Source of the DNA: Olivibacter jilunii
Lineage (GTDB): Bacteria > Bacteroidota > Bacteroidia > Sphingobacteriales > Sphingobacteriaceae
DNA: 64,000 nucleotides
NCBI RefSeq assembly: GCF_900607235.1
Contig: NZ_LR027853.1
Coordinates: 1 to 64,000 of the forward strand
Direction: 5' to 3'
Shown: positions 48,801-62,046 of the stretch, piece after piece
Layout: each line of letters begins with the position of its first letter
Position numbering within the stretch: position 1 is the first letter of the stretch
Program-made: the position numbers and the translations under genes
The notes under the pieces: model-generated
Databases searched by the model: none
Told to the model about the DNA's origin: nothing
What the model saw: the letters and a program-made list of their open reading frames with translations, nothing else

Positions 48801-49151
48801 CTAAATTGTGAGCAAGTCATTCATATAAAAAATACTTGCCAAAGGAGACAGAGTCTGTTGGATCTCATTCGTTGTTTTGTCTTTATAAGTGCAAACAACA
48901 ATTGGAATATCTGTCACGTTGAACAAACTGAGAAGAGATGGATCTCTTAAGTATGTTAAAGCGAAAATGACTTTTGCACCTTGTTTATTTAACGGTTCGC
49001 TGTTAATTTCAATTTCTTCGGCAATATCGATCTCCCTAATTGCAATCTGAGCAATTACGCCAGCAATTAATGTTAAAAGTAGCCTTTCTTCTTCTGAGAT
49101 TTTACCTTTGATCCTTCGGTCAGCTATTCTTTTCGCTCTTCTCTTTGCCAT
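48801..49151 (-). CDS. Hypothetical protein
   Basis: A 116-residue protein. The N-terminus is very basic (MAKRRAKRIADRRIKGK) and the body is hydrophobic, with no clear enzyme motif. It opens the low-G+C block that continues into the defence island. A frame on the same strand that runs on downstream (48594-48807, contains PKSKIAPDYLILNMVAK) has no start and may be chance or a remnant. Confidence 0.45.
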   Translation of the reverse strand: MAKRRAKRIADRRIKGKISEEERLLLTLIAGVIAQIAIREIDIAEEIEINSEPLNKQGAKVIFALTYLRDPSLLSLFNVTDIPIVVCTYKDKTTNEIQQTLSPLASIFYMNDLLTI

Positions 49152-49396: not shown

Positions 49397-50230
49397 TCAT
49401 TCATACCAACTGGAGGTATCCACATCATAGTCATCAATTGTGTATTTGCTGAACGGAAATTCGGGGCTGATAACATATCGGATGGCGGTATCGAAAGGGA
49501 AGCTTTCATGTAAATCTAATCCGTCACCTTCCCGTCGTTCCTTGCTTGAGCCGTACTCAAGTGTCACATTCAGATTGCCACTAACCTCAACAATAATTTC
49601 AGTGCTATTTATCTCTATGATATGGTAGTCCGACACTTCTGAATAATCGACATAGTGATGCGGAGCGAGCATATCGACATTTTGAAAGAAATTGTTTACT
49701 ATTGATGACAGCATGTGGTCGTCAATGTGGCCATCTAAAAATTGCTTAAGGTCGTTTCGGTATGCTTCAATAGTATCAACTAAATTTATGAAAGCCTGCA
49801 AAACATCCTGCGACAAGTCCTCAATGTCTTTATCTGCCATTCCAAACACCTCTGGATTAACGTGGGTATATTTATTTAATATACTAATGGCGCTTTTTAC
49901 CTCGCCAATGATCTCTGAAAGTGCTTCGGTGTCAAATCCCCAATCTGAAAGACTCTCATCTGTAATTCCTCCCTGTATGGCATACTTGATCCTTTGATGA
50001 CGGGTAGGATTTCCATCAGCGGTTTCTTTTTTAAACCAAGCACATGCTTTTACATTGTCGTCAGGGGATAGGTTATGCAAAAAGTGGCGCGAAAGTTCGC
50101 GGATGGAGTATGCAAAATTGTTCAATCTAAGTTTGTTAGTTGTATCGTTCAAGGTGTCAATAGACGCCGAAAACAGTTCCCTTTCGAAGTCGGTTGTCAG
50201 CAGTTCCTTTATTTTTTCTTGGTTTTCCAT
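49397..50230 (-). CDS. Hypothetical protein, possible pPIWI-associating nuclease-type family
   Basis: A 277-residue acidic protein. The N-terminal half has FAYSIRELSRHFLHNLSPDD, then ACAWFKKE and HQRIKYAIQGG. The middle is helical with a predicted dimer surface, and the C-terminal 80 residues are beta-rich (IIEINSTEIIVEVSGNLNVT). The pattern recalls a family named predicted pPIWI-associating nuclease, but I cannot verify it here. It is divergent from the Gabija-like genes, with 156 bases between, so it may be a functional partner or an unrelated island member. Confidence 0.45.
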   Translation of the reverse strand: MENQEKIKELLTTDFERELFSASIDTLNDTTNKLRLNNFAYSIRELSRHFLHNLSPDDNVKACAWFKKETADGNPTRHQRIKYAIQGGITDESLSDWGFDTEALSEIIGEVKSAISILNKYTHVNPEVFGMADKDIEDLSQDVLQAFINLVDTIEAYRNDLKQFLDGHIDDHMLSSIVNNFFQNVDMLAPHHYVDYSEVSDYHIIEINSTEIIVEVSGNLNVTLEYGSSKERREGDGLDLHESFPFDTAIRYVISPEFPFSKYTIDDYDVDTSSWYE

Positions 50231-50386
50231 TATTTAGGGATTGATTCTCGCTAGTTAAACAATTTTATCAATAATTGTATGATTCCGCAATAGTTCACCT
50301 GGATTTTTCCGCTGTTCCAATGAATTACGTTTTCGACTTGCGAAAATTTATTGATACTTTTATGGCTGAACCCTATAAACTTAGCT

Positions 50387-52270
50387 ATGTATTTGAGTGC
50401 TCTCAAAATCCACAACTTTAGAAAAATTCAGCATCTCCATATCGAGTTTAACAAGGGTGTTAACCTGCTGGTTGGAGAAAATGATGCGGGAAAGACTTCA
50501 ATTCTGGATGCTATAAGGCTTGTCACTGGCGTTCATGGAAATGACTATTTCAGGGTAACCCATGATGATTTTTATACCGACGGGACTACCAGATGCAATG
50601 ATCTTCAGATCACTTGTGAGTTCAAGGACCTTTCCAATCAGGAGTCCGCATCTTTTTTGGAGTGGGTAAGTATCGATGGAGATAAATATTACCTCAAAGT
50701 AACCCTTAGTGCTAAAAGAAGGGATAAGGGGAATTCCCTATTCGAGGTTTACCATGATCTCAGGGCTGGCGAGGATGAAGAGAGTGGTGCCATCGGTGGC
50801 GAGGCAAAAAGTAAACTGAGGGTTACCTATCTTAAACCGTTGCGGGATGCGGCATATGAACTTGCTCCAAGGCGTGGCTCGCGTCTTTCCCAGATATTGG
50901 GTGCATATGAGATTTTCCAACAACAACCCAATGTAGTACATCCTTTGGTCGATTCGATGAACAAGGCCAACTCTGAAATAAAAGATTATTTTGGAGATAA
51001 AGATGGGAAAATAGTAGCAGATACTATTAATGATACCTATCTGAAGGAGATTTCGTTAAAGAACAATCCGCTGAGTTCCAGGTTTGGGATTGCAGGCAAC
51101 GAACTGGGAAGAATACTGGAGAAACTGGAGCTGATTGGGTTTTCCCAATCCGATGAAACGAATCTTGGGCTCGGAAGCAACAATTTGCTGTTTATAGCTG
51201 CTGAGATGCTTTTATTAAAGAAAGATAACGGATACACTGGCCTGAAACTGTCCCTGATAGAAGAAATTGAAGCCCACATCCATCCGCAGTCCCAAATTAA
51301 TCTGATAGACTTTCTCAATAAACACTGTGCCAAGCTGGAATTTCAGAACATCATATCGACGCATAGCAATTCCCTTGCCTCAAAAATCGACCTCAATAAT
51401 CTAATTATATGTAAGAATGGAAAGGCATTTTCCCTTGATCACAAAAATACGATGTTGGAAAAGGGGGATTACGCATTTTTGTCTAGGTTCTTAGATGATA
51501 CAAAGGCCAACTTGTTCTTTGCAAACGGTGTGCTGATGGTCGAAGGTGATGCCGAAAACCTGATGATTCCTGCCTTTGCCGAAAAAATCGACCTTCCACT
51601 GCATAAATACGGTATCTCGATTGTCAATGTTGGTAGTACGGCTTTGCTACGGTATTCCAGGATTTTTCAAAGAAGAAATGGCGAGAAAATGGGTATACGG
51701 GTTGCCTGCATATCTGATAGGGATATACCTCCCAAAGTCGCATCTGATTATACCTATGAAGTTAGGCGAAGCTCTGGAATAGTTGAACAGGTGCCATTAC
51801 TGACTAATGGCAGAAAAACTGAAGAAGATTTCACTGAAATCCAACTTGCCGAAAAGATCACATCAAAAAAAGAAAAGTTCAGGGGAGGTGATGTTGAGGT
51901 ATATGTTGGCAATACATGGACATTAGAGTACGAACTTGCCAACAGTGTGTTGTCACATTTGATCCACCGAGCTATTCAGATTGCGATCAAAATAGATGAT
52001 GGCGGAAAGCCGTTTAGCAAAGTTGATTACCTTAAGGTGCTGAGATCATGTGAAGAGCAGCGCGAAGAATGGAGGGCCAAAGCCTTCACAAACGAACAGA
52101 TTGCCGTTCAGATTTATGCTCCCCTTGAAAGAAAACTTGCTTCCAAAGCAGTAACAGGGCAAATCTTCGCATTTCTTCTGCGCAGAGACAAAACAGACAA
52201 GGCAGCGATCATCGTAGATCCGGCTTTGAAATATTTAGTTGACGCCATCAAACACGCCGCACATGTTTGA
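50387..52270 (+). CDS. gajA: Gabija-like GajA, OLD-family ATPase/Toprim endonuclease
   Basis: A 627-residue protein. The start is the ATG at 50387 (MYLSALKIHNFRKIQHL). The TTG at 50351 is rejected. The ABC-type ATPase has Walker A GENDAGKTS (from residue 30), a signature region and the Walker B LIEEIEAHIHPQSQ. The Toprim domain has VEGDAENLMIP (Glu386 and context) and CISDRDIPP. This is the class 2 OLD design in which a UvrD-like helicase follows. GajA of Gabija is about 580 residues, so this is slightly long. It cuts DNA when nucleotides fall during phage infection. It overlaps gajB by 8 nt. Confidence 0.85.
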   Translation: MYLSALKIHNFRKIQHLHIEFNKGVNLLVGENDAGKTSILDAIRLVTGVHGNDYFRVTHDDFYTDGTTRCNDLQITCEFKDLSNQESASFLEWVSIDGDKYYLKVTLSAKRRDKGNSLFEVYHDLRAGEDEESGAIGGEAKSKLRVTYLKPLRDAAYELAPRRGSRLSQILGAYEIFQQQPNVVHPLVDSMNKANSEIKDYFGDKDGKIVADTINDTYLKEISLKNNPLSSRFGIAGNELGRILEKLELIGFSQSDETNLGLGSNNLLFIAAEMLLLKKDNGYTGLKLSLIEEIEAHIHPQSQINLIDFLNKHCAKLEFQNIISTHSNSLASKIDLNNLIICKNGKAFSLDHKNTMLEKGDYAFLSRFLDDTKANLFFANGVLMVEGDAENLMIPAFAEKIDLPLHKYGISIVNVGSTALLRYSRIFQRRNGEKMGIRVACISDRDIPPKVASDYTYEVRRSSGIVEQVPLLTNGRKTEEDFTEIQLAEKITSKKEKFRGGDVEVYVGNTWTLEYELANSVLSHLIHRAIQIAIKIDDGGKPFSKVDYLKVLRSCEEQREEWRAKAFTNEQIAVQIYAPLERKLASKAVTGQIFAFLLRRDKTDKAAIIVDPALKYLVDAIKHAAHV

Positions 52271-54182
52271 CCTTCGAAAAATTGAAATTACCGACAATGA
52301 GGTTCTCGCTGTTGAGCATAAGTTTGGATTCCGCTTCAATGAAGGGCAGTTGAAACTGTTGAGATACTGGGAGACTGTTGATGTACAAGCATGCCCAGGT
52401 AGTGGTAAGACAACAACACTGGCGGCCAAGCTCATGCTATTGTCCCAAAAGATACCGCCATCGTTTTCTCAAGGCATATGCATCATTACACACACCAACA
52501 TAGCTGTTGAAGAGATAAAAGAGAAATTAGGCGATGCTGCAAAATTCTTTTTCCAGTACCCTAACCATTTTGGTACAATCCAATCTTTTGTTGATAAGTA
52601 CCTTACAATACCTTATTACAAAAACAAGTATAAATCTTCGCCAAAAATTGTTGAGGAATTTGCTTATAATGACATTATCTCTAACTTGTATGAACTGGTG
52701 GTAACAAAGACGGTTGATTTCCTTGAGCGTAAAAATGTTTTTTTAGGTGGGCTGGTTTACAATAGGCACAATTTCAACATATCAAAGAACCTGAATAATA
52801 CTGAAAAATTCGATATTAAGGGACTGAAGCCAGATACATGCGAAAGGTATTATAAGAAAATCCAATCTGCAAAAGAAAAGGTACTTTCATATGGATATAT
52901 GACCTATGACGAGGCTTATTCCATCGCATTCAAGTATATCAGAGAATTTCCCCATGTTCTGGATGCAATCAGACAAAGGTTTCCGATGGTTTTTGTTGAC
53001 GAGATGCAGGACATGGAAGTCCATCAGAGCGCCCTCATATCAACCCTGTTCGGACAAGATTCGATCATTCAAAAAATCGGAGATATCAATCAGTCCATTT
53101 TCAGTTCGAGGGCAAGCGAAGACCAAGCGGAGTGGAAACCTGTGATCAACCAGGATATACAGCTTAGAATATCAAACCGGCTTTCCGGTAACATTGCTGC
53201 TCTGGTAAAAGACATTTGTTGTAGACCGCAGGAAATGACTGGCCGCGACCACTCGGAAATCAAACCGATAATCTTTGTCTACGAAACGCATTCTATACTT
53301 AAGGTCAAAGATGAATTTGCGAAACGGGTAATCATAAATAACCTGGCTTCCGTCGGTGATATCAAAATCATTGGTTCAAGGATTGGAAAGGATTCCAAAT
53401 TGAACATATCTTCATATTGGCCGGAATTCAATAGAGTCTATCAAAAAAGTCATTATAAAAATCTGAATTCCTATCTAAATTATCTCGAAATTAATTTGCC
53501 TTCAATACAAAATGTTAAACAGGTTAGGCTTACTTTTTTAAACTGTATCTGTGAATGCCTCAAAATATGTGGCATAAAAAATCCATTAACGAACTTCAAT
53601 TTTACACCGTTTTCTTTTATCAAATATGTGAACGACGTCGGGCACCCGGATAAAATCATCAACATGGACTTGAAGATTGCTGATTGGATCATCAAAACAA
53701 AAAACTCTGTTTCTATTAAGTCGGATTTCATCAGTTTGATAAGAGGTATTTTAAAATTTTTCGGCGGAAACTCGTGCACTGAACTGGAAGAATTTCTTGC
53801 CAACGAAGACATTGCCGTTGATGAAGAAAGACCAGAGCAGAAAATTTATACGTTCGTTGACGGAGAAAACTCTGTTGACATCCATTTTGACACGATACAC
53901 GGTGTAAAGGGAGAAACTCATAGCGCTACATTGTATTTGGAAACATTTACCAGGTTATATGACGTTGGCGGAAAGATATTGAATTTTATCATTGCTGATA
54001 ACGTGGGTAAAGAGAAGTTGAGAAAAGATAAGGCTTGTTACAAGAAACTTCCACATGCGTATGTAGCATTGACTAGGCCGACTCATTTGTTAGCAATTGC
54101 AGTAAATAAGGAAAGGTTTCTACAGACCCACTTGGAATATTTTGGTGAAGAAAGTAATGGATGGGAGTTAGTTTTTATCTAG
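52263..54182 (+). CDS. gajB: Gabija-like GajB, UvrD-family helicase
   Basis: A 639-residue superfamily 1A helicase. The ATG at 52263 lies inside the gajA end (8-nt overlap). A TTG at 52239 is rejected. Visible motifs are motif I VQACPGSGKTTTLAAKL, motif II FVDEMQDME, the GDxxQ-like GDINQSIF (motif III), and motif VI AYVALTRPTHLLAI. GajB proteins are often about 490 residues, so this one carries about 150 extra residues, mostly between motifs III and V. It would sense or process DNA ends and activate GajA. Context next to GajA is decisive for the name. Confidence 0.82.
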   Translation: MFDLRKIEITDNEVLAVEHKFGFRFNEGQLKLLRYWETVDVQACPGSGKTTTLAAKLMLLSQKIPPSFSQGICIITHTNIAVEEIKEKLGDAAKFFFQYPNHFGTIQSFVDKYLTIPYYKNKYKSSPKIVEEFAYNDIISNLYELVVTKTVDFLERKNVFLGGLVYNRHNFNISKNLNNTEKFDIKGLKPDTCERYYKKIQSAKEKVLSYGYMTYDEAYSIAFKYIREFPHVLDAIRQRFPMVFVDEMQDMEVHQSALISTLFGQDSIIQKIGDINQSIFSSRASEDQAEWKPVINQDIQLRISNRLSGNIAALVKDICCRPQEMTGRDHSEIKPIIFVYETHSILKVKDEFAKRVIINNLASVGDIKIIGSRIGKDSKLNISSYWPEFNRVYQKSHYKNLNSYLNYLEINLPSIQNVKQVRLTFLNCICECLKICGIKNPLTNFNFTPFSFIKYVNDVGHPDKIINMDLKIADWIIKTKNSVSIKSDFISLIRGILKFFGGNSCTELEEFLANEDIAVDEERPEQKIYTFVDGENSVDIHFDTIHGVKGETHSATLYLETFTRLYDVGGKILNFIIADNVGKEKLRKDKACYKKLPHAYVALTRPTHLLAIAVNKERFLQTHLEYFGEESNGWELVFI

Positions 54183-54518: not shown

Positions 54519-56429
54519 ATGGGAAAACCGTTTACTAAAGAAATAGAGAAAATAAATGAAACATTGGAGTGGTCTTTTAAACAGGATGTTGATCTGTTGA
54601 AAAGAGATCTTTCAAATGTTAATAAATGTCCCCTATTTGTTGTGGGTTCAGGAGGTTCACTAAGTGCGTGTTATTATGCCGCCTTATTATATCAGCATGA
54701 TGGAGTAATGTCAAAACCTATAACGCCACTAGAACTATACTATTCGAGAAATGCATTGAGAAATTCAAATGTCTTATTTATAAGTGCGAGTGGTAGAAAT
54801 AATGATATACTTTTCGGGTATAAAACTGCCATTGAATATGAGCCAAACAGTGTGTTTAGCTTATGTATGAAAAAGAATACTCCGCTCGCGAGATTGAGCG
54901 CTGAAAACTCAATTGGGAAACACTATGATTTCCAGTTGTCCACTGGAAAGGATGGCTTTCTTGCAACAAATAGTTTGGTAGCTTTTTTCGGAATTTTATA
55001 TAAGGCCTTTCATATTGAACAGAACTTAGATGAAATCACGATAGATTCTGATGATCCTTTCTATGGAGAGTTAGATAGTTTTATAGATAAAGTAACTCCT
55101 GATTTTACGTTTACGATATTATATGCAGGTTGGGGCCAACCCGTAGCTGTGGACTTGGAATCAAAACTGGCAGAGGCTGCACTCTCAGATGTATTGTTGT
55201 CAGACGTCAGAAATTTTGGTCACGGACGCCACCATTGGTTCGATAAAAGAAAGGCTAAATCAGCAATTATTGCATTGGTAACTCCGGAAGAGAAAAAAAT
55301 TACCGATAAGACACTTGCTCTTTTACCGCAAGATATCCCTGTACTGAGAATTAACTCTAAGCATTCTGATGGTTTTGCCAGTATTGATATGCTTATTAAA
55401 TCTTTTCATTTCATAAAAAGAATAGGACAAATTCAAGGTATCGACCCAGGACGACCAGGTGTGCCTGATTTCGGAAGCAAGTTATATCATTTAAAATACA
55501 GTAGTTTCTACAAAAAGATAGGTGATATATCATGGAATGAGAAAATAGCAATAACCAGAAAGGCTAACTTACCTGCATATGATCTTTTAACTCAAAAAGA
55601 AAAAAAATATTGGCATAAAGCCTACCATGAGTTTAAGGTGAAGTTAAAAAGTACCATATATGGATCAATTATATTTGATTATGACGGTACGATATGCTCT
55701 GCCGAAAATAGGTTTCATGGGATAGAGAAGGAGACCTCACGTCAGTTAATTAATATACTTGAAAACGGGATAGTAATCGGTATCGCTACAGGAAGAGGGA
55801 AATCAGTCAGAACAGATTTGCAAAAATGTATTCCAAAAGAATATTGGTGTCAAGTAATTATAGGGTATTATAATGGCAGCGATATAGGTTTGTTAGACGA
55901 TGAGTCAATACCGGACAAAACAAAAAAAATAAGCAGTACATTGCAGGTTATATTTGATTTGCTAAAAGAATATAACTTTCTATATGAGATAATTCCAGAG
56001 ATCAAGCCAAACCAATTGACTATAGAAATTGGCGATAAAAGGGATTGGCCAAAAGTTAGGTCAACAATTATTCAACTGATAATGCAACAGAATATTCCTA
56101 ATGTACAGATATTGGAGTCAAGTCATTCAATGGATATAATCGATCAATCTGTTACATCTAAGCTGAACGTTGTTGAGTACTGTATTTTAGCAGCAAAAAA
56201 GAAGAATAAGACGGGCAATTGTTTATGTATAGGCGATAAGGGCAGTTGGCCAGGTAATGACTACCGACTTCTTTCTTCCTCGTTTTCGCTAAGTGTAGAT
56301 GAGGTTTCTTCAATTGATTCAACTTGCTGGAATTTAGCATTACCTGGATTAAAAAATTTAAAAGCAGCGCTTTATTACTTATCTTCCTTGGATTTTAATA
56401 ATGAAGGGTTTAAAATAGATATTAAATGA
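54519..56429 (+). CDS. SIS domain-HAD phosphatase fusion protein (operon gene 1)
   Basis: A 636-residue two-part protein. The N-terminal about 340 residues are SIS (sugar isomerase) domains. The first has the loop FVVGSGGSLSACYYAALLY (about residues 40-58) and the ISASGRNNDIL motif, and the second has GHGRHHWF. Residues about 380-625 are a HAD phosphatase with motif I DYDGT (Asp387, Asp389), motif II IATGRG, a motif III Lys in SKLNVVEY and motif IV GDKGSWPGND, as in type IIB (sugar-phosphate) HADs. It likely binds and dephosphorylates a sugar phosphate. Its stop overlaps gene 2 (ATGA). The DNA is A+T-rich. Confidence 0.8.
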   Translation: MGKPFTKEIEKINETLEWSFKQDVDLLKRDLSNVNKCPLFVVGSGGSLSACYYAALLYQHDGVMSKPITPLELYYSRNALRNSNVLFISASGRNNDILFGYKTAIEYEPNSVFSLCMKKNTPLARLSAENSIGKHYDFQLSTGKDGFLATNSLVAFFGILYKAFHIEQNLDEITIDSDDPFYGELDSFIDKVTPDFTFTILYAGWGQPVAVDLESKLAEAALSDVLLSDVRNFGHGRHHWFDKRKAKSAIIALVTPEEKKITDKTLALLPQDIPVLRINSKHSDGFASIDMLIKSFHFIKRIGQIQGIDPGRPGVPDFGSKLYHLKYSSFYKKIGDISWNEKIAITRKANLPAYDLLTQKEKKYWHKAYHEFKVKLKSTIYGSIIFDYDGTICSAENRFHGIEKETSRQLINILENGIVIGIATGRGKSVRTDLQKCIPKEYWCQVIIGYYNGSDIGLLDDESIPDKTKKISSTLQVIFDLLKEYNFLYEIIPEIKPNQLTIEIGDKRDWPKVRSTIIQLIMQQNIPNVQILESSHSMDIIDQSVTSKLNVVEYCILAAKKKNKTGNCLCIGDKGSWPGNDYRLLSSSFSLSVDEVSSIDSTCWNLALPGLKNLKAALYYLSSLDFNNEGFKIDIK

Positions 56430-57526
56430 GGTCGGCTCTCGCAGAAAAATTATTGGTTAAAATAATGGATTGGTCACCTGAAGAGATTTCGAAAGAAAGA
56501 CCCTTGTTACAGGCGTTGGCCAATTTTAAATATGATGAATATCAGCAGTTTTCTCCCGGAACGAGGTTTATCGAGAGTTTAGTGAAATGGCTTTCTCAAT
56601 TTGAACATATAGAGGAAAGAAGATGGGCATACGATTTTATAAAAGACCACTTAATTTTTATTTCCAATAACCAAATTACACATCTTGTTAATATTACTTA
56701 TGCCGAGAAGATTAACCCAGTAATTGTTGATAAGACTGCAACAAGTATTGGTATCAGTAAGTACCTTGTACGTAAGATAGCAAAGAGTACACACTATAAA
56801 TCAATTCTGAGAAGGTCCTTGTTCATTGGGTTAAGTGATGGTTCCAGAATTGACCAGCTTCGAAGAAGTTATACTAGGATTAGCAACGAACAGGTTTTGT
56901 CAACCTATTCAATTTCCAATGATAAAATCACCGACATGCTGGGTGAACTGAAAAAATCTGGTATCAAAAAGAGGTTTAATACGGTTTTCTTAATCGATGA
57001 TTTTACAGCTAGCGGAACTAGTTATTTCCGAAAAAAAGATAATAAATGGGGCGGTAAAATATATAAGTTCATCAATTCGATTTACGGTCACGATGCAGAT
57101 ATAAAATTTTCTGATTTAATAGAACCTTCGGAAAGGTTGGATATCCATATTATTTTCTATATTGCTACAGAAGATGCTGTTAAAAAGCTTAATGATAACA
57201 TCATTGCATTCAAAACGGAATATCCTTCTTATAACTTTCAATTCACCATCGGGACAGTTCAGCTTTTGGAACAGAATATTAAAGATAATGTTCTAAAGGA
57301 AACCAACTTTGTGAACTCAATTAAAAAATATTATGATGATCAGATAAATGATTCCCATTATAAAATGGGTAAACATGATGATCCTCATTTGGGTTTTAAC
57401 GAATGTAGTTTGCCTCTGGTGTTAAATCATAACACTCCAAACAATTCTCTGCCGATACTATGGTTTCCAGAGGATAAAAAATATATAGGCTTATTTCCTA
57501 GAGTAACAAGACATAAAGATGAGTAG
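56426..57526 (+). CDS. Phosphoribosyltransferase-like protein (operon gene 2)
   Basis: A 366-residue cytoplasmic protein. The PRPP-binding loop is clear: FLIDDFTASGTSY, with the acidic pair at residues 191-192. This is the hallmark of type I phosphoribosyltransferases. The N-terminal 120 residues are helical. The region around LFIGLSDGSRIDQLRRS may form the second half of the fold. The flanking segments do not match purine, pyrimidine or ComF enzymes. I recall a conflict-system PRTase family (PRTase-CE) with this look but cannot check. It overlaps gene 1 by 4 nt and gene 3 by 8 nt. Confidence 0.75.
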   Translation: MRSALAEKLLVKIMDWSPEEISKERPLLQALANFKYDEYQQFSPGTRFIESLVKWLSQFEHIEERRWAYDFIKDHLIFISNNQITHLVNITYAEKINPVIVDKTATSIGISKYLVRKIAKSTHYKSILRRSLFIGLSDGSRIDQLRRSYTRISNEQVLSTYSISNDKITDMLGELKKSGIKKRFNTVFLIDDFTASGTSYFRKKDNKWGGKIYKFINSIYGHDADIKFSDLIEPSERLDIHIIFYIATEDAVKKLNDNIIAFKTEYPSYNFQFTIGTVQLLEQNIKDNVLKETNFVNSIKKYYDDQINDSHYKMGKHDDPHLGFNECSLPLVLNHNTPNNSLPILWFPEDKKYIGLFPRVTRHKDE

Positions 57527-59408
57527 GCTTAGAAATCCATTTAGATTACGTGCGTCGGAAAAAATAGAGTCTGACGTGAGTTTTTTACGATTGTATAGTC
57601 CGATTGTGTTAGATGCCTTATGCGAGAAACATAAGGATGGAAAGCTGTGGAATAATGTAATGTATATCCATAGTTCTCCAGGGGCAGGAAAGACATCTCT
57701 GTTGAGAGTTTTTGAACCAGGGACTTTAAATGCATTATTAAATAGTAGATCCGCCGCTGATTACAAAGTTCTATATAATACACTGCGCAGATTGGACGTG
57801 TTGGGGGAACATAATATAGCCACCCTAGGTGTCACTCTTGTATGTACTAGAAACTATGAAATTTTAGAAGAATTGGATATATCAAACGCTCAAAAGATTC
57901 GATATTTTTTTTCGCTTCTAAACTCTCGTATTTTTTTAGCAACTCTACGAGCTATTGTTGATTATGCATCATCCAATTCTAGTTTTAATGAAGTTTTAGA
58001 GGATATTTCCTACAGCTTTGATGATAGGGAAAATTATTTTAAGGATTTGCCAAGGCCCTGTACGGGCAAAGAGCTATATGCTTGGGCATCTAATATTGAA
58101 AGAAAAGTTTATCAAGCTATTGATAGTTTTCTGCCATTAGAGCATTTACAACCTCAAGGCCATGATGAATTGTTCTCCCTGACCGTACTAAAACCGGAGT
58201 ATTTTACCATAAATGGGGCGCCAATCCATTGTAGGTTCTTGTTCATGATTGATGATGGACATAAATTATCGACGTCACAACGTATATCGCTAAAGAAGTA
58301 TATAATTGAACGGCGGGGAAGTTTTAGTATATGGGTATCGGAGAGATTGGAGGCCTTGGATGCAATGGATAATTTAAGGTCGTACATAGGTAGGGATTAT
58401 GAGGTACTTAATCTTGAGAGGTTTTGGAGTGACCATCAAGGTAAATTCGAAAAAGTTCTTGCAAATATTGCTGATAAGCGGGCCGCAAGTTCTACTGAAG
58501 ACGTCAATTCATTCAAAGAGTATTTAGAAAACGAACTTGAAGAAGAAGTTCTTCGAGATGAATTTTTGGAATCCGTTCAAGAAACCAAAAGCAGTATTCT
58601 GAAGATCACGTCTTTCACCAATAAATTTGATAAGTGGTTGGCATATGTTGAAAATACTGAAGCCACGCCATTAGAAAGGGCTATTTTATATAAGAAGCTA
58701 GAAATTTTAATAAATAGGAACGTTGGTAAAAGTCAGCTTGCATTTGAGTTTCCTCTCACCCAGGAAGAACTACTTGATAAATTTAAGTCGGATATAGAGG
58801 CGACGTCTAAGTTATTTTTATCGCAGAAATCGAAGATACCTTATTATTATGGTTTTGGTGATATTGTGAAACTTTCATCTAATAATATTGAGCAATTTCT
58901 TTCATTTTCTGGGGATATTTTCGAAGAAATGCTGTCGAATAGATTGTCGGGCAATCATATAAATATCGGGACAAAACGTCAGCAAAAAATATTAATAGAT
59001 GTTGCAAACAAAAAATGGGAGGAGATATCGAAAATAGTCCCATACTCAAATAATATTGTGGCATTTCTTAATAAATTGGCAGAAGCGTGTAATAAAGATA
59101 CGTATAAACCAAATGCACCTTATGCACCGGGAGTTACCGGATTTGCGATAAAGCATAATAAAAACATATTCGATAAAAATGCCAATTGGTATGAAGATGA
59201 GGCTTATATGCCTTTAGTAAATGTTATATCCACTTGTGTAGCTTTCAATTTATTGGAAATAAAGGATGTTAATCAGGGGGAGAAAGGAAAGAAGTGGGAG
59301 GTCTACTATTTGAATCGATGGCTGTGCTTAAAATTTAACCTTCCTTTTGCCTATGGGGGATGGAGACATAAATATACCGATGAATTACTCAAATGGACAA
59401 AAACATAA
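57519..59408 (+). CDS. ORC/CDC6-like AAA+ or STAND-type ATPase (operon gene 3)
   Basis: A 629-residue protein. Walker A SSPGAGKTSLL lies at residues 52-62 and the Walker B equivalent FLFMIDDGHKLS has Asp245-Asp246, with the third position Gly instead of Glu. A winged-helix or sensor-like C-terminal part of about 300 residues ends in a basic patch (YGGWRHKY). The layout is like ORC/CDC6-family regulatory ATPases known from conflict systems. The lack of the usual catalytic Glu suggests a switch rather than a strong motor. It overlaps gene 4 by 16 nt. Confidence 0.7.
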   Translation: MSRLRNPFRLRASEKIESDVSFLRLYSPIVLDALCEKHKDGKLWNNVMYIHSSPGAGKTSLLRVFEPGTLNALLNSRSAADYKVLYNTLRRLDVLGEHNIATLGVTLVCTRNYEILEELDISNAQKIRYFFSLLNSRIFLATLRAIVDYASSNSSFNEVLEDISYSFDDRENYFKDLPRPCTGKELYAWASNIERKVYQAIDSFLPLEHLQPQGHDELFSLTVLKPEYFTINGAPIHCRFLFMIDDGHKLSTSQRISLKKYIIERRGSFSIWVSERLEALDAMDNLRSYIGRDYEVLNLERFWSDHQGKFEKVLANIADKRAASSTEDVNSFKEYLENELEEEVLRDEFLESVQETKSSILKITSFTNKFDKWLAYVENTEATPLERAILYKKLEILINRNVGKSQLAFEFPLTQEELLDKFKSDIEATSKLFLSQKSKIPYYYGFGDIVKLSSNNIEQFLSFSGDIFEEMLSNRLSGNHINIGTKRQQKILIDVANKKWEEISKIVPYSNNIVAFLNKLAEACNKDTYKPNAPYAPGVTGFAIKHNKNIFDKNANWYEDEAYMPLVNVISTCVAFNLLEIKDVNQGEKGKKWEVYYLNRWLCLKFNLPFAYGGWRHKYTDELLKWTKT

Positions 59409-60541
59409 ATAAACTTCGTTGGGATCCCTCTGTTTTTGTCAGGGGAAAAAATACCGTAAACTTTTGGAAAGAACATTTTTCTTCTAGAGACCGTAAACCC
59501 CTTTTTATCTTGGGCAAAGGTTTTGATGTTAGGATGAATATAGCTTTAAAATGCTTATTAGAAGCCAGTCCAGAAACTGAAATGGAATGCTGGTTAATCG
59601 AATTTGAAGAAGGTCTAGGCTCTAATTCTCATAAATATCAACCCTATGTAGATGAGAACTTAAAAGAACTTTATGAGATTATTGATCCAAGCAAAGTGTC
59701 ATCAAAAAAGATTGCCCTTTGGAATAGCAAGTCTAAAACCAAAAAGAAGCGGATTGGAGACAGGCAAGCTGCACACATATTAAGTTCGATCGATCAAATT
59801 AAAGACTTCACTGATATAATTATTGATATCAGTGCGCTTCCTCGTGGTGTTTATTTTTCGCTTGTGGGTAAATTCTTGACTTTTATAGATACTTATCTTG
59901 AGAAAAAAGTACCGAATCTTTTTGTTGTGGTATCCGAGAACGCATCGATAGATGTAAAAATAAAAGAAAAAGGCATTGACGAAGATGTTGGCTACCTGCA
60001 TGGGTTTGGAGGTACTTTAGAGTTGTCATCGTTATCGGATGAACCAGTAATATGGTTTCCAATACTCGGTGAGGATAAAAACGAACATTTGGAACGTGCC
60101 CATTCGCATATAAATCCCAATGAGATTTGTCCTGTACTACCATTTCCCTCAAAAAATCCCAGGAGGTCAGATGCTCTAATAAAAGACTATCATCAGTTGC
60201 TCTTCGATAAGCTTAGTATAGAGCCTCAAAACCTGATGTACGTACCTGAGCAAAATCCTTTTGAAGCATATGGAAGGTTAATTAAGGCAATAATCAATTA
60301 CAACAAGTCGTTAAGATCATTAGGAGGATGTAAGGCTGTGATATCTACTTTTTCAAGCAAACTTCTTTCTATAGGTACACTTCTCACTGCTTACGAGCTT
60401 ATAGGTTGTATTGGTGTTGGTGTCCTTAATGTTGATTCTCAAGGTTATGAAATTGAAGATTTTGAAGAATTAAAAATGTTGAAAGAAAGTAGCGAACTTT
60501 TTGTAATTTGGCTAACTGGAGATCCTTATGATGAAAGCTGA
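59393..60541 (+). CDS. Rossmann-like protein of unknown function (operon gene 4)
   Basis: A 382-residue protein. The first third has LFILGKGFDVRMNIALKCLL, where GKGFD is a Rossmann-like turn. Next come TEMECWLIEFEEGLG and, near residue 145, IIIDISALPRGVYFSLVGKF. The C-terminal part reads as a second alpha/beta unit (VISTFSSKLLSIGTLL, then LFVIWLTGDPYDES). No enzyme family is clear. The order Asp-Ile-Ser before a helix and repeated strand-helix units suggest a nucleotide- or NTP-sensing fold. It overlaps both neighbours, so it must act with them. Confidence 0.6.
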   Translation: MDKNINKLRWDPSVFVRGKNTVNFWKEHFSSRDRKPLFILGKGFDVRMNIALKCLLEASPETEMECWLIEFEEGLGSNSHKYQPYVDENLKELYEIIDPSKVSSKKIALWNSKSKTKKKRIGDRQAAHILSSIDQIKDFTDIIIDISALPRGVYFSLVGKFLTFIDTYLEKKVPNLFVVVSENASIDVKIKEKGIDEDVGYLHGFGGTLELSSLSDEPVIWFPILGEDKNEHLERAHSHINPNEICPVLPFPSKNPRRSDALIKDYHQLLFDKLSIEPQNLMYVPEQNPFEAYGRLIKAIINYNKSLRSLGGCKAVISTFSSKLLSIGTLLTAYELIGCIGVGVLNVDSQGYEIEDFEELKMLKESSELFVIWLTGDPYDES

Positions 60542-61577
60542 AATATTGTCTAACCCCGTATGTATTGGGACTGGTCTTGTAGCACTTGATGTGGTTATTA
60601 GTAACGAGCATGATGTTCCAGCACAATTTTGGGCTGGAGGATCTTGTGGTAATGTAATAACTATTTTATCGTATTTTGGTTGGAAGTGCTTCCCAATCGC
60701 CAGATTATCTAATAATGTTGCTGCGGAAATGTTGCTTCAAGACCTACATAAATGGAATGTGAAGGATGATTTGATAACAGCAACTAGTGATGGTAGTACC
60801 CCAATAATTATACATCGTATTCTGAGAGACAAGGAGGGGGCTCCTAAGCATAAGTTTGAATTCAGAAACCCAGAAGATGGAAGTTATCTACCGTCTTATA
60901 AGCCATGTCTAGCCAAGTCAGTAAAAGGACTAGTTGAACGTATACCGGCTTCTAATGTTTTTTATTTTGATCGCATAAATAGAGGCGCTATAGATTTAGC
61001 AAAGTCGTACAAGGGAAATGGCGCAATAGTTTTTTTTGAACCTTCTAGTGCAAAAGATATTAAGGGCTTCAATGAATGCCTTGAAATAACTGATGTGGTT
61101 AAGTTTTCAAATGATAGGATATCCGACTATGACAAAATGTACCCTATTGGTCGAGTGCCTTTAGAAATACAAACTATGGGTGAAAGCGGTCTAAAATTCA
61201 GACTTAAGGGCGAAAGTGAATGGACGCATTTGGAAAGCTATTCTATTGATAATGTTATAGATTCTGCGGGGGCAGGAGATTGGTGCACAGCGGGAATAAT
61301 TAAGACATTGTTTTATAAGAATAATTCGTCTTTTCCCATTAATAAGGATGATATCGTAAAAGCTCTACGGTTTGGGCAAATTCTTAGTGCTATAAACTGC
61401 ACATTTGAAGGTGCAAGAGGATTGATGTATGCTGTGCCTAATAATGAATTGTTGCTATATGTACAACATATTATATCCTCATCTGTAAAGAAAATTTATC
61501 AAGGTACTAAGCGTAAAGGAGTTTATACGAGCGATAATAGAAATCTAAAAATATCTTCATTATTTGCTTCAATATGA
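60528..61577 (+). CDS. PfkB-family carbohydrate kinase (operon gene 5)
   Basis: A 349-residue kinase of the ribokinase fold. The C-terminal PfkB signature is IDSAGAGDWCTAG, with catalytic Asp251 in GAGD. The N-terminal part has TGLVALDVVIS and WAGGSCGNVIT, the usual substrate-binding glycines of the family. Start ATG at 60528 (a second at 60531) overlaps gene 4 by 14 nt. Family members phosphorylate sugars or nucleosides. It is the last gene. No strong terminator follows at once. Confidence 0.82.
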   Translation: MMKAEILSNPVCIGTGLVALDVVISNEHDVPAQFWAGGSCGNVITILSYFGWKCFPIARLSNNVAAEMLLQDLHKWNVKDDLITATSDGSTPIIIHRILRDKEGAPKHKFEFRNPEDGSYLPSYKPCLAKSVKGLVERIPASNVFYFDRINRGAIDLAKSYKGNGAIVFFEPSSAKDIKGFNECLEITDVVKFSNDRISDYDKMYPIGRVPLEIQTMGESGLKFRLKGESEWTHLESYSIDNVIDSAGAGDWCTAGIIKTLFYKNNSSFPINKDDIVKALRFGQILSAINCTFEGARGLMYAVPNNELLLYVQHIISSSVKKIYQGTKRKGVYTSDNRNLKISSLFASI

Positions 61578-62012: not shown

Positions 62013-62046
62013 AAAGGCAGCAAGTTTTTAACTTGCTGCCTTTTTC
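62013..62046. terminator. Rho-independent terminator
   Basis: AAAGGCAGCAAGT (62013-62025) pairs perfectly with ACTTGCTGCCTTT (62031-62043), a 13-bp stem followed by T-run TTTTT. It can stop the five-gene operon transcript or the remnant on the minus strand, whose stop codon is inside the stem. Confidence 0.8.

Follow-up and report, generated by a model that had tools for sequence, protein, structure and literature searches.

A predicted mobile conflict cassette in Olivibacter jilunii joins a PRTase, ORC-CDC6-like ATPase and CARF core to an exchangeable module of sugar enzymes

The usual reading of CARF proteins is that they sense cyclic oligonucleotides produced by Cas10 or CD-NTases, and Can1 is a CRISPR nuclease that carries two CARF domains in one chain. 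Two other families, ORC-CDC6-like (PF24389) and PRTase-CE (PF24390), come from work on prokaryotic conflict systems. In type III-A retrons the usual, presumed effector is a phosphoribosyltransferase (PRTase; PMC12548924), and a DprA-PRTase system, also with the PRTase as presumed effector, is active against T7 and lambda (PMC9122126). Here we describe a five-gene cassette, found in a 64,000-nucleotide stretch of Olivibacter jilunii DNA (contig NZ_LR027853.1 of assembly GCF_900607235.1, positions 1 to 64,000; hereafter the window), in which a PRTase-CE/ORC-CDC6-like/CARF core is coupled to a module of sugar enzymes. Like the CARF effectors of type III CRISPR, among them Can1, Csm6 and Can2, the cassette has a CARF fold, tandem as in Can1, but it has no recognised fused nuclease and no linked Cas10, the partners of the CARF protein being an ATPase and a PRTase. 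With type III-A retrons and DprA-PRTase it has in common the PRTase as presumed toxic effector, but the regulators differ, since neither a reverse transcriptase nor DprA is recognised in the cassette; family searches found no reverse transcriptase among the proteins encoded at 48.8-61.6 kb. Also related are trios of PRTase-CE, ORC-CDC6-like and CARF6 genes, which match the core in families and gene order (back to back in L129, 8147-11998) but, unlike the cassette, lack SIS-HAD, PfkB and NADAR genes.

The cassette spans 54519-61577, and all five genes lie on the plus strand and start with ATG. They encode a SIS-HAD fusion of 636 residues (54519-56429), with an N-terminal double-SIS part resembling sugar-phosphate isomerases/deaminases and a C-terminal HAD-IIB phosphatase; a PRTase-CE phosphoribosyltransferase of 366 residues (56426-57526), the proposed effector; an ORC-CDC6-like AAA+/STAND-type ATPase of 629 residues (57519-59408), the proposed switch; a tandem CARF sensor of the CARF6 family of 382 residues (59393-60541); and a PfkB/ribokinase-family sugar or nucleoside kinase of 349 residues (60528-61577). 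Successive genes overlap by 4, 8, 16 and 14 nucleotides, and their G+C content is 34-36%, compared with 39-50% across most of the window (it is also 37-40% near 8, 18 and 41 kb, outside the cassette). The overlapping same-strand layout and the A+T-richness reported by a first-pass annotation made from the sequence alone were thus both reproduced. Chance does not explain the arrangement, as 65 further loci hold these genes side by side, again with small overlaps of similar size.

To establish how far the five genes stay together, we scanned the genomes of 84,980 species with a search seeded with the CARF alignment, which returned 113 relatives, of which 80 loci were kept. Contig ends cut eight of these. 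The other 72 comprise 65 loci with all five genes, five with a NADAR gene instead of PfkB, all gammaproteobacterial, and two that resemble remnants (L072 and L080). Gene order among the 65 complete loci is that of the window in 52, has SIS-HAD and PfkB in front in 12, and has these two divergent in one. Carriers belong to at least ten phyla (Bacteroidota, Pseudomonadota, Myxococcota, Planctomycetota, Bacillota, Armatimonadota, Acidobacteriota, Nitrospirota, Cyanobacteriota and Thermodesulfobacteriota), to which one Dehalococcoidales bin and two more that carry the label Thaumarchaeota may be added if these bins are not mislabelled. No relatives were found in phage records, and only two in viral contigs.

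Reciprocal searches gave the same picture. Among plasmid records, separate searches with CARF and SIS-HAD matched the same 17, one of which is from an actinobacterium and the rest from Alpha- and Betaproteobacteria; the only extra SIS-HAD match covers just the HAD part. In the family of the window's genome, CARF and SIS-HAD were found in the identical three of 151 genomes, a coincidence with a chance of 1 in 562,475 by our own arithmetic, which ignores relatedness. In a sample of 190 genomes of the rhizobial family, only three mismatches between CARF and SIS-HAD were seen, and these were rejected as real separations because they fall at contig ends (G697, G726) or in a remnant (G664, the same as L072). 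Separately, frames are split in the CARF, PRTase and SIS-HAD genes of L168 (G536) and in the CARF gene of L080; these copies are probably decaying genes or assembly errors. Together, these results indicate near-obligate co-occurrence: the five genes form one functional unit that stays together far beyond close relatives, often on plasmids and with no fixed chromosomal place. This excludes both a housekeeping sugar or nucleotide pathway at a set position and a gene set confined to close relatives, either of which would have contradicted the first-pass reading.

Comparison of pairwise distances across the 65 complete loci resolved this unit into two modules. Distances for PRTase, ORC and CARF correlate with one another at r 0.94-0.97, and those for SIS-HAD and PfkB at r 0.94, but correlation across the two sets is only 0.64-0.71. 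Between two alphaproteobacterial groups the core proteins are 55-58% identical, with SIS-HAD at only 26% and PfkB at only 30%; conversely, between a mostly rhizobial group and a Bradyrhizobium group the sugar proteins are 49-51% identical and the core 23-35%. Since core and sugar identities diverge in both directions, the sugar module has been exchanged as a unit between cores, and on these protein comparisons the cassette is a PRTase-ORC-CARF core joined to a SIS-HAD/PfkB sugar module. The core tree requires at least four changes of gene order and at least three in the presence of NADAR. It broadly follows phyla, with 13 label changes where the minimum possible is 10, and transfer has therefore been mostly within phyla. 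On Sinorhizobium meliloti plasmid pRRI128_5 (L011, 5848-18025), two PRTase/ORC/CARF cores, the second with a partial PRTase, share a single SIS-HAD/PfkB/NADAR/HTH module.

We then considered the core proteins individually. The fourth gene, which the first-pass annotation had left as an unknown Rossmann-like protein, has no Pfam match but is matched by the PADLOC CARF6 model (PDLC01910) at E=1.1e-122 and 407 bits. Its AlphaFold2 (AF2) model, of mean predicted local distance difference test score (pLDDT) 94.5, finds Can1 (6sce) as best fold match (Z 15.0, root mean square deviation 3.1 Å over 233 residues), followed by Csm6, Can2, Cam1 and Card1. The top Foldseek rows for the same model, universal stress proteins and KCC/NKCC C-termini, had TM scores below 0.3 and were not used. 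The fourth protein is thus a tandem CARF sensor. Neither family searches nor the fold rows revealed a separate effector domain in its 382 residues, where a fold missing from those lists is possible.

The PRTase matches PF24390 at E=9.5e-24 (85.1 bits, cut-off 27) and the PADLOC PRTase_III-A models at 2e-12. Its AF2 model (pLDDT 93.7) matches a uracil PRTase at Z 9.7 over 137 residues, with hypoxanthine PRTases at or below this value; this modest fold score is backed by the Pfam match and by the phosphoribosyl pyrophosphate (PRPP)-binding loop LIDDFTASG (residues 189-197, 56990-57016, plus strand), located from the sequence and an alignment of homologues, 49 of which keep D191, D192 and G197 invariant. 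The family alignment also shows a strongly conserved C-terminal motif outside the PRTase core, LPLVL.HNTPNNS..LLW....LFPR..RH (window residues 329-363), which may define the acceptor site. The third protein matches PF24389 at E=1.3e-26 (93.9 bits, cut-off 27), and its Walker A region SPGAGKT (residues 52-59, 57672-57695, plus strand), again placed by sequence and homologue alignment, contributes G55, G57 and K58 to the positions that, with D245, are invariant across 35 homologues. It is a distant member of its family, at 93 bits against 312-383 for the ORC proteins of the trios.

In every intact locus the ORC-CDC6-like gene adjoins the PRTase-CE gene. Two apparent exceptions to separate genes were discarded: the 1019-residue PRTase-ORC fusion of L098 is a frameshift, its single frame being out of register at HNTPNNS, the conserved C-terminal stretch of the PRTase, and the 1026-residue CARF frame of L180 is a mere open 5' extension, a separate ORC gene overlapping it in another frame. 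Elsewhere in the phylum the ORC-CARF6 pair is preceded either by PRTase-CE (L129) or by a calcineurin-like phosphatase (L130, 7804-11786; L131, 7692-11706). The latter two loci are a three-gene sister architecture, with the same ORC-CDC6-like and CARF6 pair, PF24408 (wHTH-Calcineurin_assc) and a metallophosphatase in the effector slot, but no PRTase or sugar enzymes. The effector slot is thus swappable and, because its enzyme changes while sensor and switch stay, the PRTase is probably the effector of the cassette, a role presumed for PRTases in type III-A retrons and DprA-PRTase as well.

The sugar module also retains its active sites. Sequence evidence for the SIS part is weak (NagB-II at E=0.0017, and SIS/NagB-II entries of the PDB at 3e-6 with the family profile), and the HAD part resembles Cof-type phosphatases (PF08282, 8e-7). 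The SIS-HAD family conserves GSGGS and has invariant E219 and H235, 16 residues apart and aligned to KLKE...FLHGP of the NagB-II structures 8eol and 3hba, a spacing shared with GlmS (E488/H504). HAD residues D387/D389, K548 and D573 are conserved, with the motif DYDGT. PfkB matches PF00294 at 4e-8, its family profile matches fructokinase 5ey7 at 2e-17, and its GAGD motif contains the invariant D251. Over 35-57 homologues the catalytic motifs LIDDFTASG, PGAGKT, GAGD, DYDGT and GSGGS are intact and near-invariant. Near window residues 108-118, many PfkB-family members carry H..F...CPxCG, possibly a zinc-ribbon-like insert of a kind not usual in PfkB kinases; its cysteines are missing from the window copy.

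A NADAR gene (PF08719) adjoins the sugar module in 14 of the 80 loci from genomes and in 7 of the 14 from plasmids; each of the six complete loci without PfkB has one. NADARs are ribosyl N-glycosidases, splitting ribosyl N-glycosidic bonds (PMC9503650). Since this is the type of bond that PRTases make, a restraining or clearing role is suggested, in which NADAR would act on the PRTase product. PRTase and NADAR also parallel the pairs of enzymes that write and erase N-linked ribosyl marks (PMC9503650), and one could imagine that the cassette makes a ribosylated base or nucleotide for placement in DNA or RNA as a self-mark or block; no nucleic-acid-modifying enzyme is recognised among the cassette proteins, however, and we give this idea very little credence. 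In another ribosyl-acting association, genes for a nucleoside 2-deoxyribosyltransferase-like protein and an Mrr-like nuclease lie directly upstream of the cassette in L012 (8212-9620).

What might the CARF protein bind? Using one profile each for Cas10 and SMODS, from which divergent synthetases may escape, the Cas10 palm exceeded its cut-off in 5 of 29 carrier genomes, several weakly, and SMODS in 6; at most 9 have either and 20 have neither. Because these 20 carriers are without recognisable Cas10 and SMODS, the ligand of CARF6 is in most carriers probably not a CRISPR or CBASS (cyclic-oligonucleotide-based anti-phage signalling system) messenger. The nearness of the fold to Can1 and Csm6 would fit an ancillary module of type III CRISPR or CBASS whose CARF reads a cyclic oligoadenylate produced elsewhere in the cell, and the window's genome does encode one SMODS protein away from the cassette (L135, G000 C4 301635-302099), likely part of a CBASS. 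But family searches matched no CD-NTase among the five cassette genes, the Cas10 palm (PF22335) has no match in the window's genome, synthetases are scarce among carriers as just described, and neighbour clustering yielded no recurrent cas-like family. We regard such an ancillary role as very unlikely.

With most carriers lacking a recognisable synthetase, the ligand needs another source, and this is the starting point for a self-contained signalling scheme. PRTase, SIS-HAD and PfkB would together produce an unusual ribosyl nucleotide, with CARF as its receptor, NADAR as its off-switch and ORC as a sensor or effector. The intact active sites of all the enzymes, and the splitting of ribosyl N-glycosidic bonds by NADARs (PMC9503650), are consistent with it. 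However, the ORC-CARF6 pair also occurs with a calcineurin-like phosphatase and no PRTase or sugar enzymes, so that the CARF ligand need not be made by these enzymes, and the scheme would leave no obvious toxic effector; we find it unlikely. The more specific proposal, that the three enzymes make a non-cyclic ribosyl nucleotide messenger, read by the tandem CARF and destroyed by NADAR, we consider unlikely; if true, both the CARF ligand and the immune second messenger would be of a new class.

The reading that we prefer, tentatively and at close to an even call, is that of a mobile two-module conflict cassette in which CARF senses, the ORC-like ATPase switches, the PRTase acts and the sugar module processes. 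The tandem CARF would bind a nucleotide-type ligand within a single polypeptide, like Can1, and, once ligand-bound, would trip the ORC-like ATPase, which in turn would switch on the PRTase. Acting on PRPP and a base or nucleotide, the PRTase would transfer phosphoribosyl from one to the other, in the forward or the reverse direction, and so upset nucleotide metabolism and halt the growth of phage. The ribosyl-phosphate compound that results from the PRTase reaction, or that the reaction requires, would be handled by SIS-HAD and PfkB, with NADAR added or replacing PfkB in some loci; they would isomerise, dephosphorylate, rephosphorylate or deribosylate it, and might thereby either complete a toxic product or clear the product to restrain the effector. 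In this scheme the ligand, the substrate, the direction of the reaction and the defence role are inferences. In the first-pass annotation the enzymes already acted on a ribosyl or nucleotide compound under control of the ATPase; this fits the anatomy, but the CARF sensor had been missed. Several points weigh against this reading: the contact between the ORC-like and CARF proteins is putative, the PRTase could be a synthetase instead of an effector, SIS, HAD and PfkB are generic folds equally compatible with a metabolic role, and defence enrichment around the cassettes is modest. On the last point, 103 neighbours matched 149 PADLOC families, and 103 control proteins, drawn from arbitrary positions of the carrier genomes, matched 63; this crude count, in which one protein may match many models, is suggestive only.

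A metabolic role would mean an accessory operon that salvages or degrades some unusual ribosyl compound, with a nucleotide-sensing ATPase as regulator and no part in defence. Of the five genes, three or four encode metabolic enzymes, and carriers are often plant- or soil-associated, with large plasmids. However, the distribution is sporadic (3 of 151 genomes in the family and none of four in the genus), neighbours vary, no transporter is kept alongside, Gabija adjoins in the window, the CARF and ORC-CDC6-like families are known from conflict systems, and remnants with broken genes occur (L072, L080, G536). We judge it quite unlikely and return to the conflict cassette, whose predicted anti-phage role we regard as likely.

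The surroundings themselves are varied. Cassettes lie near Gabija, type I restriction, MADS, DISARM DrmD, Fic, caspase and ubiquitin-like systems, and near Tn7-like TniB/TniQ, integrases and conjugation genes. Neighbour clustering gave NADAR as the only recurrent extra partner, plus scattered recombinase, restriction and other families. In the window, the annotated Gabija is an intact pair, GajA (50351-52270, plus strand, E=4e-195) and GajB (52239-54182, plus strand, E=1e-151), a complete independent system (50351-54182) outside the cassette. Gabija is only one of many neighbours and no constant partner elsewhere. Divergent from Gabija are a predicted pPIWI-associating nuclease gene (49397-50230, minus strand; pP_pnuc_1/2, PADLOC Aga_Nuclease 2e-79) and, beside it, a small reading frame of unknown kind (48801-49151, minus strand); the neighbouring proteins that were scanned include no recognisable Argonaute. 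Downstream of the cassette, a 14-pair palindrome with T-runs (62013-62043, no strand assigned), a possible bidirectional terminator by consensus match only in a window whose terminator count is not above that of shuffled sequence, could mark the end of the operon. An empty site in the genus was not demonstrable: the cheB-like downstream gene has relatives in four same-genus genomes, and in the three such regions examined none of the window's neighbours is present.

The cassette had been put forward as a new type of system. We found no description of the five-gene set, its modular structure or its link to NADAR in the open literature searched; one may exist in Makarova et al. 2020, a CARF census, or in Burroughs and Aravind 2020. 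PRTase-CE, ORC-CDC6-like and CARF6 are, however, already named families, and the trio exists without sugar enzymes, so that the cassette is better termed a variant whose novelty is the two-module structure with sugar enzymes. Its CARF-ATPase pair is tied to ribosyl-phosphate enzymes in genomes that mostly have no recognisable Cas10 or CD-NTase, and its sugar module moves between cores in one piece. Two questions are thereby made testable: what ligand CARF6 binds, and how PRTase effectors, including those of type III retrons, act in the cell.

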